Shown: positions 33,666 to 39,770 of the stretch, piece after piece
Numbering within the stretch: position 1 is the first letter of the stretch
Layout of the letters: each line of letters begins with the position of its first letter
Source: Bacteroidia bacterium
GTDB taxonomy: Bacteria; Bacteroidota; Bacteroidia; J057
Direction of reading: 5' to 3'
Assembly: GCA_033391075.1 (NCBI GenBank)
Contig: JAWPMV010000004.1
Span: 1 to 64,000 of the forward strand
DNA length: 64,000 bases
Notes under the pieces: model-generated
What the model saw: the letters and a program-made list of their open reading frames with translations, nothing else
Database searches by the model: none
Told to the model about the DNA's origin: nothing
Made by a program: the position numbers and the translations under genes

Positions 33666-34487
33666 TTATTTCAAAAACTTCCGATCATCAGATAATCGAA
33701 TATCACGTTTGAAAACTTCGACCTGCTTAGCCGCTATTTCGCACAAACGTCGGTAACGAGCCTCTTTACTTGCTCCTGCACGTATATAATCGGCATTGTG
33801 GGTTTCGAGATTTGATAAGACAACTAATTGGATGAGACTGGCATGATCCCGTATATTCCCTTTGGCATCAGGATTTGCTTCTCTCCATTCTTTCGCGGTC
33901 ATTCCAAAGATGACCAGATTGATGAGATCCGCCTCATCAGCATAAATGAATTTACCATCTTTTTCAGAGATACGAGGCAGAATGGTATTTTCAATTGCAT
34001 CTGCTTGCAAGGAGTAATTCACTTTAGAAAGGAAACGGCCTGCATCCCATTCGAGTTTCTGGCGCTGGTACTCATGAGATTTGAGATGTTGGAACTCACG
34101 TATTAGCATAAGTTGGAATAAAGGACTTACCCAGGAAGCAAAAGCAAAAGCCAAATCTCTATGTCCAAAAGTGCCGCCATATCGGCCCGCTTTCGCCTCT
34201 AATCCTATAGCCCCGGTTTCCTGAATCCAGTTTTTTACCGATATTGTAAATGCATTTCTGCCTGCCTCATTTCTAATCTTCTCGAATTCGAGAAGATTAA
34301 AATCTGGATTATTCATACTCTCCCAAAATGAAAGTAATTCAAGGGTATCTCGATTTCGCAACCAATTGTTTATAGCTTGACTGGGATTTCTCCTATCTCT
34401 TACCATATCGGTCAAAGAAATATAGTCCTGCTCATCAATCGATTTGACAGAGATCTCTTTTCCATCTATATAAATCTTTTCGCTCAT
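33666..34487 (-). CDS. KilA-N domain protein (phage/plasmid-type DNA-binding)
   Basis: The 273-residue protein starts with the short strand segment IYIDGKEISVK and then a KilA-N domain: YISLTDMVRDRRNPSQAINNWLRNRDT, FWESMNNP, GAIGLEAKAGRYGGTFGHRDLAFAFASWVSP (residues ~17-125). The family is common on phages and mobile replicons, where it is thought to bind DNA. The C-terminal half (LSKVNYSLQADAIENTILPRI, NLVIFGMTAKEWREANP) resembles the helical part found in plasmid copies. Its position about 1.1 kb from the ParAB genes fits a plasmid backbone or passenger gene. It could also be a phage remnant, but nothing else phage-like is near. Confidence 0.83.
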   Translation of the reverse strand: MSEKIYIDGKEISVKSIDEQDYISLTDMVRDRRNPSQAINNWLRNRDTLELLSFWESMNNPDFNLLEFEKIRNEAGRNAFTISVKNWIQETGAIGLEAKAGRYGGTFGHRDLAFAFASWVSPLFQLMLIREFQHLKSHEYQRQKLEWDAGRFLSKVNYSLQADAIENTILPRISEKDGKFIYADEADLINLVIFGMTAKEWREANPDAKGNIRDHASLIQLVVLSNLETHNADYIRAGASKEARYRRLCEIAAKQVEVFKRDIRLSDDRKFLK

Positions 34488-35593: not shown

Positions 35594-36403
35594 CTATTTT
35601 TTACTTTCGGGTACGGCGAGGCCCAATCGCAACATCGTCTCTCTAACAAAAGCGCTATAATCAGCTGCACCATTACTTTTAGGTGCATAATCATATATGC
35701 TCATATTGTTCATTTGTGCTTCCATGAGAGATATATTTTCACGGATGAAGGAGGTGTAAACCAACTCCCCCATTCTCCGTTCTGCAATGCTGGCCATATT
35801 GCGCATAGCTACCTTATGCGGATTGTAGCGATTGAGCAGGACGCCCAAACACTGGAGGTCAGGATTGATGTGATCCTTTATCCGATTTGCAGCATCCAGC
35901 AGGAGTTCCAAACCAGAGGCCGCAAAATATTCTGCATTTAAAGGAACGAGGTAATAGTCACTGGCCGAAAGGGCATTGATGGTCAGGTTGTCGATCTTGG
36001 GAGGTGTATCGATAAGGATGATATCGTATTGATCCCGCACCTGATCCAGAATTCGTGTCAAAACCTTCTGCCTTTGATCTACCTGAATCAACTCATGATC
36101 GGCTGCTCCGAGGTGTTTGGTGGAAGGCAGCAAATCCACTCCAAGTTCGGTGGGCAAAATTATCCCGGGCACATCGTAGTCCTGATCTTTGGAGATGGCC
36201 CAGATGGCTTCATACAAAGTTTTAGAAACGCTATTGAGCATTTCATGATGCCCCATGCTCAAAGTCAAATTTGCCTGGGGGTCCATGTCAACCAATAATA
36301 CCTTCTGGCCATATTTTGCCAGGCCTGTTCCCAGGGCTATGGTGGTTGTCGTCTTACCGGTCCCTCCTTTTTGAATCGCTATGGAAATGATCATCGAACT
36401 CAT
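35594..36403 (-). CDS. parA: ParA family partition ATPase
   Basis: The 269-residue protein has the deviant Walker A motif QKGGTGKTTTT (residues ~11-21), Walker A' VLLVDMDPQANLT, and IILIDTPPKID (Walker B). No N-terminal helix-turn-helix is present, so it is the small (type Ib/Soj-like) class, which acts with a separate DNA-binding partner. That partner is the RHH gene directly downstream. The pair lies ~1 kb from the Rep initiator gene and should segregate the replicon. The start could also be the fourth codon (M4). Confidence 0.92.
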   Translation of the reverse strand: MSSMIISIAIQKGGTGKTTTTIALGTGLAKYGQKVLLVDMDPQANLTLSMGHHEMLNSVSKTLYEAIWAISKDQDYDVPGIILPTELGVDLLPSTKHLGAADHELIQVDQRQKVLTRILDQVRDQYDIILIDTPPKIDNLTINALSASDYYLVPLNAEYFAASGLELLLDAANRIKDHINPDLQCLGVLLNRYNPHKVAMRNMASIAERRMGELVYTSFIRENISLMEAQMNNMSIYDYAPKSNGAADYSAFVRETMLRLGLAVPESKK

Positions 36404-36909
36404 GCAGCTTGAATGATATTTTTTATTGCATTTGTTAATTATAAATCGCAGAACAAATCCCTACATAGAAAGCATTCATTCTGCCAACGCTCCTGCCATC
36501 CATTTTCTCATGCAGCATTTAAGCACTCAAACCTACACATTTGCCCACAAATCTACTCGCACAATCATCAGGCAAATCTACATATTTACCAGCTACATAA
36601 ATACTCACAGTTTTACATACATATTTTTACAGCATTTCAACACCCATAAATTACCTCATTTATAAATGCAATTAATAGTCAAAAACTACATTCAAAACAT
36701 CGTAATAAATGCAAACACAACTTGCATCATTAATAACATGCTGAAAAATATGCTTTTATAATGGCATAAAGCATAAAGAACTGCATGCAAGTTAATACAT
36801 ATTTTTATTACTGCAAATTTTATTAAGTTTTTACATGCATTCTATCTACACGAATACATTCACGGCTACATGCTAGTCTTCATAAAGCATGCCACAAACA
36901 TCTTCTTTC

Positions 36910-36937
36910 ATTTTGCATGCAATTATGCATGCAAAAT
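36910..36937. repeat. TGCATGCA palindrome, copy 1
   Basis: A perfect 12-bp inverted repeat ATTTTGCATGCA/TGCATGCAAAAT with a 4-bp spacer (ATTA). Two TGCATGCA octamers are thus placed 12 bp apart, centre to centre. The same arrangement recurs at 37262-37281, and a single octamer is at 36782-36789. Position between parA and rep suggests a binding site for the RHH protein or for Rep. Confidence 0.6.
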
Positions 36938-37261
36938 TTGCCTCCATGATGCATTCTTGATTTCCGCATATAAAAGCTTTTCAAAAAAAACATGGGGAAG
37001 AAAGGGAAGAAAAAAAGATACACAGGGCAATCCTGCTTTTTTCTTTCGGTTTTGGTAAAACTTTGAAATACGCCTAAATGGAGTGGAAAACAGGATCAGA
37101 CATAGCTCCTGAGGGCTCATATAGTTCTTCTAAACAAGAATAGCAGGAGAAACAGATAAATATTCAGCTGAAAGATCACTTTCCTTAGATCAAATTTTCA
37201 GGGGGCAAGGCCTGGCGCAGATTTACTCACATAAAAAGCGGGCAAATTTGCTGTATTTTTC

Positions 37262-37281
37262 TGCATGCAATTTTGCATGCA
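37262..37281. repeat. TGCATGCA palindrome, copy 2
   Basis: TGCATGCA-N4-TGCATGCA with the same 4-bp spacing as copy 1 at 36914-36933. It lies ~115 bp past the rep stop codon. Confidence 0.6.
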
Positions 37282-37336
37282 AAGTATCTGCTTGATTCTT
37301 TGAATTCAGCTATATACAGATTTATTTATAAAGAAA

Positions 37337-37360
37337 GAGTCGAATCCAAAGATCCGACTC
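37337..37360 (-). terminator. Probable terminator of the rep gene
   Basis: On the minus strand GAGTCGGATC pairs with GATTCGACTC (one G-U) across TTTG, followed by a T-rich TTTCTTTATAAAT. It lies 36 bp beyond the rep stop codon. Confidence 0.7.
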
Positions 37361-37395
37361 CATTCTTTTATATTCACTTTTTAAATTTCCAGCGC

Positions 37396-38745: not shown

Positions 38746-39770
38746 TTAGCGCTTTGTTCTAAACGAAGGTAGGAATTAAAGCAACAAATCAAAACCAAAG
38801 TTGCCAAACACCAAATCCGTTGCCGTTAATCAGGCTAAATTCCTGTAAATGAATTGCTTAAAGCTACATCCTTTCTGTTGCATTTAACATCTTATCTGTT
38901 GTTTTTCGCACCAATTCTGTTGCATTTATAGCTGAAATTCCCTGAATTCCTCGTTTAAAGAAAATAATCCCATCCTTTCTGTTGCTTTTGAAAAAAAATC
39001 AAAAAAAATTCCCTTCTGAAAGACGCACATTCAATCTGTTGCTTTAATTCCCATCCATTTTGTTGCTTTATAAGAGAAATCAATTGGCATAAGAGGTTTC
39101 CCAGGCCTTTTTTGCCAATAGGTAATCTTTATCCATCCAAATTGTTGCGATAGACATCCCTTCTGTTGCGATAACTTTTATATTCTTCAATATTATATCC
39201 TGATTATCAGTTAGTTACGAAGACAATTCATCAAACATCTAAGTTGTTGCCCTTAACATCCCTCCTGTTGCTTTAAGACATTTAATCCGTTGTTTTTCAC
39301 ATCCCCCTCGTTGCTTTATACATCCATCATGTTGCTCTTAACATTCATTATGTTGCTTTTAGGTGCTTTAACTAGTTGTTTATCAGTTAATTATGAGGGC
39401 CGAAATAATACAAATACTTAAATAGATAAAAGCAACTAAACAGAAGTAGGGGTTTGTATTTTATTCCTTTTTAAGAGATGAAAGACCCAATAATGGGTGT
39501 ATTTCTGCAAGTTGCTTAGCACATCCTTATTGTTGCTTTTGTGTAAGTGCCTGATTATCAGCAGTATTTATTTTAAATGGCTTCCAATATTCCGCACACC
39601 AAAAGTGTTGCTTTAAGTAAAAGGGCTAAGCAACATCCCTTTTGTTGCTTTTGGGAAATCAAGCATAGCTGAACATCCTATTTGTTGTTTTTAAGGAAAT
39701 GAGGAGAATATTCCCTGGAAGGATAGGGGCTAGAGAGGGCTTGTTGTATCTTTATCCTAAAGAAAGCTCA
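38746..39770. other. Candidate replication origin region upstream of rep
   Basis: The ~1-kb gap between the divergent rep and carboxypeptidase genes contains the iteron array. A particularly AT-rich stretch at 39380-39480, flanked by iterons, is a candidate DNA-unwinding element. The 11-bp CTGATTATCAG, whose halves are inverted repeats, occurs twice (39200-39210 and 39551-39561). I see no clear DnaA box. The carboxypeptidase promoter must also lie here. Confidence 0.7.
38808..39692 (+). repeat. Iteron array (~19 copies, consensus ACATCCnTnnTGTTGCTTTT)
   Basis: About nineteen 20-bp copies, all in the same orientation, share ACATCC then 4-5 variable bases and TGTTGCTTT(T/A). Their starts are near 38808, 38866, 38887, 38908, 38970, 39027, 39051, 39133, 39154, 39235, 39256, 39278, 39299, 39320, 39341, 39521, 39596, 39633 and 39673. 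Within clusters the spacing is 21 bp (two helical turns), for example 38866/38887/38908 and 39299/39320/39341. The invariant core is TGTTG. This is the standard binding array for Rep_3-family initiators, and it is placed directly upstream of one. Confidence 0.88.

Follow-up and report, generated by a model that had tools for sequence, protein, structure and literature searches.

Does the repeat-rich region upstream of a Rep_3 initiator gene in this bacterium form the replication origin of a separate replicon, and what ties its repeats to that initiator when related systems are present in the same cell? The window, meaning the whole stretch of 64,000 nt that was analysed, corresponds to bases 1–64000 of contig C4 (367,906 bp) in a 9.49 Mb Bacteroidota genome of five contigs (C1, 8.16 Mb; C2, 176 kb; C3, 252 kb; C4, 368 kb; C5, 529 kb). 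The end-to-start junction of C4 is spanned by a single 1313 aa ORF with internal repeats, and since this ORF is uninterrupted, C4 reads as a closed circle. The separate replicon assumed in the initial annotation was therefore found, as a contig of its own with an ORF continuous over its ends. A genome-wide domain search for Rep_3 (PF01051) detected one gene on each of C2, C3, C4 and C5 and none on the chromosome, C1. Taken together with the features in Table 1, we are confident that this is the replication-control locus of a 368 kb circular megaplasmid, namely a Rep/iteron origin whose array is written in its own dialect.

Table 1. Features of the C4 replication and partition region (positions in the window)
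Feature	Position	Strand	Basis
KilA-N protein	33666..34487	-	homologues of 52–56% identity on C2, C3, C5
Putative ParA partner, 146 aa	35109..35549	-	adjoins parA; KGLDALF motif by eye
ParA partition ATPase	35594..36403	-	PF13614 1.1e-52
1 kb AT-rich intergenic region between parA and rep, candidate centromere	36404..37395		inference
rep, 449 aa: Rep3_N (WH1), Rep3_C (WH2) and helical C-terminal extension of ~220 aa	37396..38745	-	Pfam, profile, AlphaFold
Promoter-like pair of Bacteroidota type, TTTG-N18-TACCTTCG, overlapping the inverted half-iteron	38764..38793	-	consensus scan only, 1 mismatch
Inverted half-iteron GTTGCTTTAA, putative rep operator	38776..38806	+	13.5 bits; faces direct GCAAC half 19 bp upstream
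Direct iteron array, 19 copies in rep orientation, TaAAAGCAACAGAatGGATGT	38807..39693	-	PWM scan; discovery score vs shuffles
22-mer iteron sites, 1–7 counted from rep	39050-39071, 39026-39047, 38969-38990, 38907-38928, 38886-38907, 38865-38886, 38807-38828	-	PWM scan
22-mer iteron sites, 8–15 counted from rep	39340-39361, 39319-39340, 39298-39319, 39277-39298, 39255-39276, 39234-39255, 39153-39174, 39132-39153	-	PWM scan
22-mer iteron sites, 16–19 counted from rep	39672-39693, 39632-39653, 39595-39616, 39520-39541	-	PWM scan
One C5-dialect iteron (CTTTAAACGAGGAATTCAGGGA) inside the C4 array	38939..38960	-	22.0 bits with C5 PWM
Palindrome box 1, CCTGATTATCAG	39199..39210	+	sequence
AT-rich spacer between iteron clusters, candidate DNA unwinding element	39362..39500		72% AT block; inference
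Inverted iteron within the AT-rich stretch	39427..39448	+	18.5 bits, PWM scan
Palindrome box 2, CCTGATTATCAG	39550..39561	+	sequence

The C4 Rep matched PF01051 (3.7e-35) and PF21205 (7.9e-16), a profile built from it and its relatives matched the RepE and pi structures, and its AlphaFold model (mean pLDDT 77) matched iteron-bound RepE54 (E 3.6e-10, target-normalised TM 0.77 to 1rep). Both winged-helix domains were thus recovered by Pfam, profile and model, and with the array adjoining the gene this upholds the proposal of a Rep_3 initiator beside an iteron origin. The C4 Rep matched 4,536 plasmid records. When related loci were sought, the C4 Rep as a single query found nothing, and an alignment of six Reps succeeded. 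Judged by its sequence, C4 fits the Rep_3 (RepE/RepA/pi) iteron replicons, which have a WH1 plus WH2 initiator and helically spaced direct iterons adjoining rep, and we take the locus to be the iteron/Rep_3 origin, of ordinary type, of one of the secondary replicons; systems of this type are already known.

The PWM scan recovered 19 same-strand iterons of about 21 bp, each scoring 17.1–28.0 bits, with a pitch of 21–22 bp within clusters. This agrees with the roughly 19 same-direction copies at 21 bp spacing described directly upstream of the Rep gene in the initial annotation; as rep lies on the minus strand, the repeat sequence given there is the complement of the rep-sense iteron. Motif discovery over the 900 bp preceding rep returned a score of 341, compared with 56 or less in dinucleotide shuffles. 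The repeats are confined to the locus, with few stray matches, rather than scattered through the genome, the outcome that had been named as counting against an origin. Allowing up to two mismatches, nine sites were found at the locus and four, all with two mismatches, in the 8.16 Mb chromosome. The exact core GCAACA-N4-GGATG occurs nine times at the locus, twice elsewhere on C4, three times on C1 and once on C2.

Other elements of the array were of varying specificity. The AT-rich stretch reported at about 39380–39480 is real but modest, the 72% AT of the richest 100 bp block in the array comparing with 57.5% for the replicon. Both of the CTGATTATCAG boxes that had been pointed out are present, but they were rejected as origin-specific elements because the 12-mer recurs on the chromosome (six copies); it is also found once more on C4, and in degenerate versions in C2 and C5. 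Perfect DnaA boxes were absent from the C4 array, and two were found in that of C3. Apart from the C5-dialect iteron embedded in the array, the sole match to the C5 PWM of at least 15 bits on C4 scores 16.4 bits. The embedded copy may be a remnant of shared ancestry, or the C5 Rep could act on C4 through it.

The end of the array nearest rep suggests how the gene may be regulated. The arrays of C2 to C5 each end before rep with an inverted half-iteron of their own dialect, and when the last 140 bp before rep were scanned on the opposite strand with the PWM of the replicon's own 5′ half, none of 30 swapped regions scored better in any of the four replicons. Across 127 Rep_3 loci, the locus's own inverted 5′ half ranked in the top tenth at 54% (10% expected) and the 3′ half at 24%. 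In C4 the inverted half-iteron of the operator is the weaker of the two inverted copies in the PWM scan (38776-38797), and the 300 bp before rep hold two promoter-like matches, compared with 0.2 expected in shuffles. In pPS10, dimers of RepA repress their own gene via an inverted half-iteron arrangement of this kind (PMC4857107). By these comparisons the inverted half-iteron before C4 rep is identified as a putative Rep_3 operator.

This anatomy was computed here, as were the existence of C4 as a circle of its own, the dialects of the four replicons, the inverted halves that resemble operators, and the co-variation of residue and base with its blind test. From the anatomy we infer how Rep binding, strand opening, repression and copy control would proceed. 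Rep monomers would bind the 19 iterons, with WH2 probably on the 5′ half TAAAGCAACA and WH1 on the 3′ half GGATG, and iteron-bound Rep would open the adjacent AT-rich stretch. Dimers of Rep would probably repress rep via the inverted half-iteron that overlaps the promoter, and titration and handcuffing on the numerous iterons may then restrain replication.

The genes on the other side of rep are likely to make up a partition module, consisting of ParA, a short partner gene and the 1 kb spacer, which carries two 25 bp palindromes TTNTGCATGCAATTNTGCATGCAAA (TGCATGCA-N4-TGCATGCA) at 36911-36935 and 37259-37283. The putative partner had no Pfam match; its N-terminal KGLDALF is similar to the motif by which ParB contacts ParA. 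A KilA-N gene is also found beside rep on two Aureispira plasmids. On C2, a C4-type iteron (133317-133338) lies about 50 bp from the end of that replicon's KilA-N gene.

Two readings in which the locus does not act as the C4 origin were considered. The array could serve only in incompatibility and in the regulation of rep, as incC does in F and incA in P1, with replication of C4 starting elsewhere. The GC skew of C4 is ambiguous in this respect, the raw minimum falling at 38 kb and the detrended curve being deeper at 264 kb; this gives weak support for an origin here, and the deeper minimum, together with the array's lack of a perfect DnaA box and the stray iterons at 210 and 284 kb on C4, favours the regulatory reading. 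Against it, C4 holds only one Rep_3 gene and only one array, an AT-rich block lies between the iteron clusters, and the matching rep-proximal arrays of C2 and C3 lie within 1 and 10 kb, respectively, of the skew minimum. On C5 the minimum is not at rep. Skew was dropped as proof of an origin, since it agrees for C2 and C3, is ambiguous for C4 and disagrees for C5. Overall, we regard a purely regulatory locus as improbable. Still less probable, to the point that we give it almost no weight, is an integrated or decaying plasmid within a chromosome. It would suit the chromosome-like composition of C4 (GC 42.5 vs 42.2%; dinucleotide signature, delta* 10 vs 17–31 within C1), which in combination with a plasmid-type ParA and Rep_3 is a trait of chromids. 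Yet C4 is a separate circular contig of 368 kb with a complete rep/par module and no tRNA genes. An Rfam scan of the window was empty, and no close DNA relative was found in the plasmid collection.

With an origin on C4 as the favoured reading, the four replicons can be compared. In rep orientation the iterons are TAAAAGCAACAGAATGGATG (C4), TAAAGCGAGTATATTGGGGA (C3), TAAAACGAGNGATTCAGGGC (C5) and AAAGGTGGAAGCATTGTGGG (C2), and 19, 17, 14 (in the array) and 13 direct copies, respectively, lie upstream of rep. On C5, two inverted iteron-like units beyond the 14 make up a hairpin (-758, -735) where the gene upstream of rep ends. The C5 and C3 Reps are 48 and 39% identical to the C4 Rep, and that of C2 26% over part of its length. 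Each iteron PWM matches its own array and barely the others, the exceptions being the single C5-type site in C4 and the C5 PWM on the C3 array, where one site reaches at least 15 bits and several are weaker. Solitary iterons of at least 17 bits outside the arrays numbered 16 on the replicon of the same dialect compared with five on the other three, a search space three times as large. Strong solitary copies lie on their own replicon at C4 210210 and 284246, C2 153675 and C5 469963, several of them inside ORFs, and three intergenic C5-type iterons at C5 4216-4388, about 68 kb from the C5 array, are a possible distant incompatibility or titration locus. The C5 iterons were identified by reading the sequence and then by PWM. 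The first motif search had picked an AT-rich array (C5 467049-467473; units of about 16 bp in both orientations) directly upstream of C5 parA, and this was dropped as a candidate for the C5 iterons; it is likely to be a centromere.

As a natural set, the four dialects pointed to a compact protein–DNA code for one of the commonest families of plasmid initiators. When arrays were sorted by an iteron core of the form [CT]-N-A-[CG], residue 189 of Rep (C4 Rep numbering throughout) was found to track the base N. It was the top alignment column by mutual information (0.84 bits, z 14.5; next column 0.54) and also ranked first in same-pair phi, and its information was concentrated in the N column (0.85 bits, with 0.23 or less elsewhere). 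Cores were placed with the scored base masked, by a model that had not seen the held-out loci in training, and N was predicted correctly in 15 of 17 held-out loci, a figure that is not fully independent because the rule for Asn, which is read with the preceding residue, was added after the held-out residues had been seen. As the placement of CGAG cores in the held-out set had been wrong, the core model was relaxed ahead of the blind run to accept G as well as C at +2. With the rules fixed, 40 further loci were fetched, of which 13 were usable, with Reps less than 75% identical to any used before. N was predicted correctly in all 13 (permutation p=0.0004). Only G and T cores occur in this set, so for the assignments of H to C, N to A and Y to A the evidence comes from the earlier sets.

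Co-variation was also followed on a tree of 100 dereplicated Rep–iteron loci from which the WH2 helix had been excluded. N changes on 36 branches, and residues 189 and 192 each change on 19 of these (6.4 expected, p=5e-8, and 7.3 expected, p=9e-7, respectively; next column p=1e-3). Residue 193 co-changes with iteron positions +2 (6e-7) and +3 (1e-10). Six pairs passed Bonferroni correction in the real data compared with none or one in each of 12 null runs (best null p about 2e-6), and the links beyond every null run were 189-N, 192-N, 193/+2 and 193/+3. Two WH1 links (89/+8 and 50/+9, about 1e-6) are not claimed as they were no better than the best of the null runs. Residues 189, 192 and 193 lie together at the N-terminus of the WH2 recognition helix.

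It is likely, in our assessment, that Rep_3 initiators read their iterons through a short, almost universal amino-acid code located where this helix begins. The code is statistical and not biochemical, being drawn from sequence comparisons. Residue 189 would set N, with [AG]N giving A (26/28 of the 100 loci), other N giving T (8/8), D giving G (26/29), H giving C (8/9), L giving T (8/9), and Y (3/5) or M (2/2) giving A. Residue 193 would set the bases that follow, R giving C-A, Y or F giving G, and K giving C-T/C; R193 was found with C at +2 in 63 and A at +3 in 61 of 64 loci, and Y or F193 with G at +2 in seven of eight. The C4 Rep, with Y189, K192 and R193, accompanies CAACA, and the C3 and C5 Reps, with D189 and Y or F193, accompany CGAG. 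The residues at 189 and 193 may therefore account for the difference between the C4 dialect and its C3 and C5 sisters. We propose that Y189, K192 and R193 specify C-A-A-C-A, so that the C4 array would answer only to its own Rep, and that initiators with D189 and an aromatic residue at 193 would read C-G-A-G. Further afield, an IncX4 Rep (KDFKK with a GGGACAG iteron) fits the code, and so does RepE of F, in which the aligned residue is D and WH2 contacts GTG/GtCA (PMC4980987). Exceptions amount to about 10%, and the reading of Asn hinges on residue 188. Reps of the Hymenobacter type (A, M or S at 189) are poorly covered; in these and other divergent Reps (Rhodothermia-like with KYL) the alignment is uncertain and sites often fall below the core score. 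The iteron of C2 itself did not fit the core model. No earlier description of an iteron recognition code was found in the literature searched, which lay outside subscription journals.

Shared ancestry, or a by-product of the way the cores were aligned, might produce such an association with no recognition code behind it, because related Reps share both residue and iteron, and the null runs did yield up to one Bonferroni match each. We consider this improbable, at much the same level as a purely regulatory array. The masking of the scored base speaks against it, as does the confinement of the information to one core column. Residue 189 came first by mutual information, by same-pair phi and by co-change on a tree built without the helix, the blind set was predicted in full, and the residues concerned cluster at one end of the recognition helix. 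A code read by that helix is the preferred explanation.

The initial annotation regarded 19 iterons as a high count, which holds relative to the 2–7 iterons given for classical plasmids in reviews (PMC4980987) but not relative to Rep_3 relatives with 21–31. An automatic survey covered 118 Rep_3 loci from several phyla. Clear arrays were present in most, with 4 to over 30 sites, and C4 came near the top, its array being in the upper size range for the family. Relatives above it include a Bacillus massilionigeriensis contig (L139; 31 iterons at 21 bp pitch) and two Bacillaceae scaffolds of 1–5.6 Mb (L138 and L144; 21 each). A Cytophagales genome had one 8.79 Mb contig (G746:C1) with eleven Rep_3 matches. 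Many iterons had also been taken as the mark of a large replicon. Count and plasmid size were correlated in the first 32 complete plasmids (rho 0.78), but the correlation was lost in an independent 25 chosen afterwards (rho 0.26, p=0.20), so a general rise of iteron count with plasmid size was rejected and no such rule is claimed.

Among described systems, RepE/ori2 of the F plasmid (RepFIA) shares with C4 the WH1–WH2 fold over 220 residues, iterons adjoining rep and a half-iteron operator, and its recognition-helix D with a GAC core is as the code predicts. It differs in having four origin iterons (PMC4980987) rather than 19, and its RepE, about 20% identical, lacks the C-terminal extension of about 220 aa seen in C4. 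RepA of pPS10 and pi of R6K have the same fold and the monomer–iteron, dimer–operator logic (PMC4857107) proposed here for C4, but 4 and 7 iterons, respectively, of other sequences. Closer in taxonomy, the Aureispira plasmids pAUEb and CCB-E are also from Bacteroidota, with ParA and KilA-N flanking rep and a 21 bp pitch, but have 12 iterons with a TATCC core, Reps of 33% identity and sizes of 77–87 kb. The closest iterons found, with a AAAGCAAC core and a recognition helix identical to that of C4 (KYRSYNYFKKRVI), were in L117 and L119, probably misbinned MAG contigs titled Thalassovita and Thalassobius; these differ in the 3′ half (TTGAAAGT), in Rep (39–40% identical) and in number (12–14). 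The Acinetobacter III-4a mega-plasmids, of which pALWED1.1 has a pfam01051 Rep (PMC8490738), and R478 (IncHI2) are likewise large replicons with many iterons, but theirs are 10–12 units of 80–84 bp rather than 21 bp.

Taken alone, the C4 origin is one more iteron replicon, though its array is large and it shares the cell with three sister replicons. The general gain from the locus is a testable recognition code. If it is true, the iteron dialect, and hence the compatibility of coexisting replicons, would be predictable and rewritable from sequence. Should it hold at the bench, one could predict from the rep gene which Rep_3 plasmids are compatible and design orthogonal replicons for laboratory strains of Bacteroidota and Bacillota, and the divergence of incompatibility groups would come down to swapping two or three residues.
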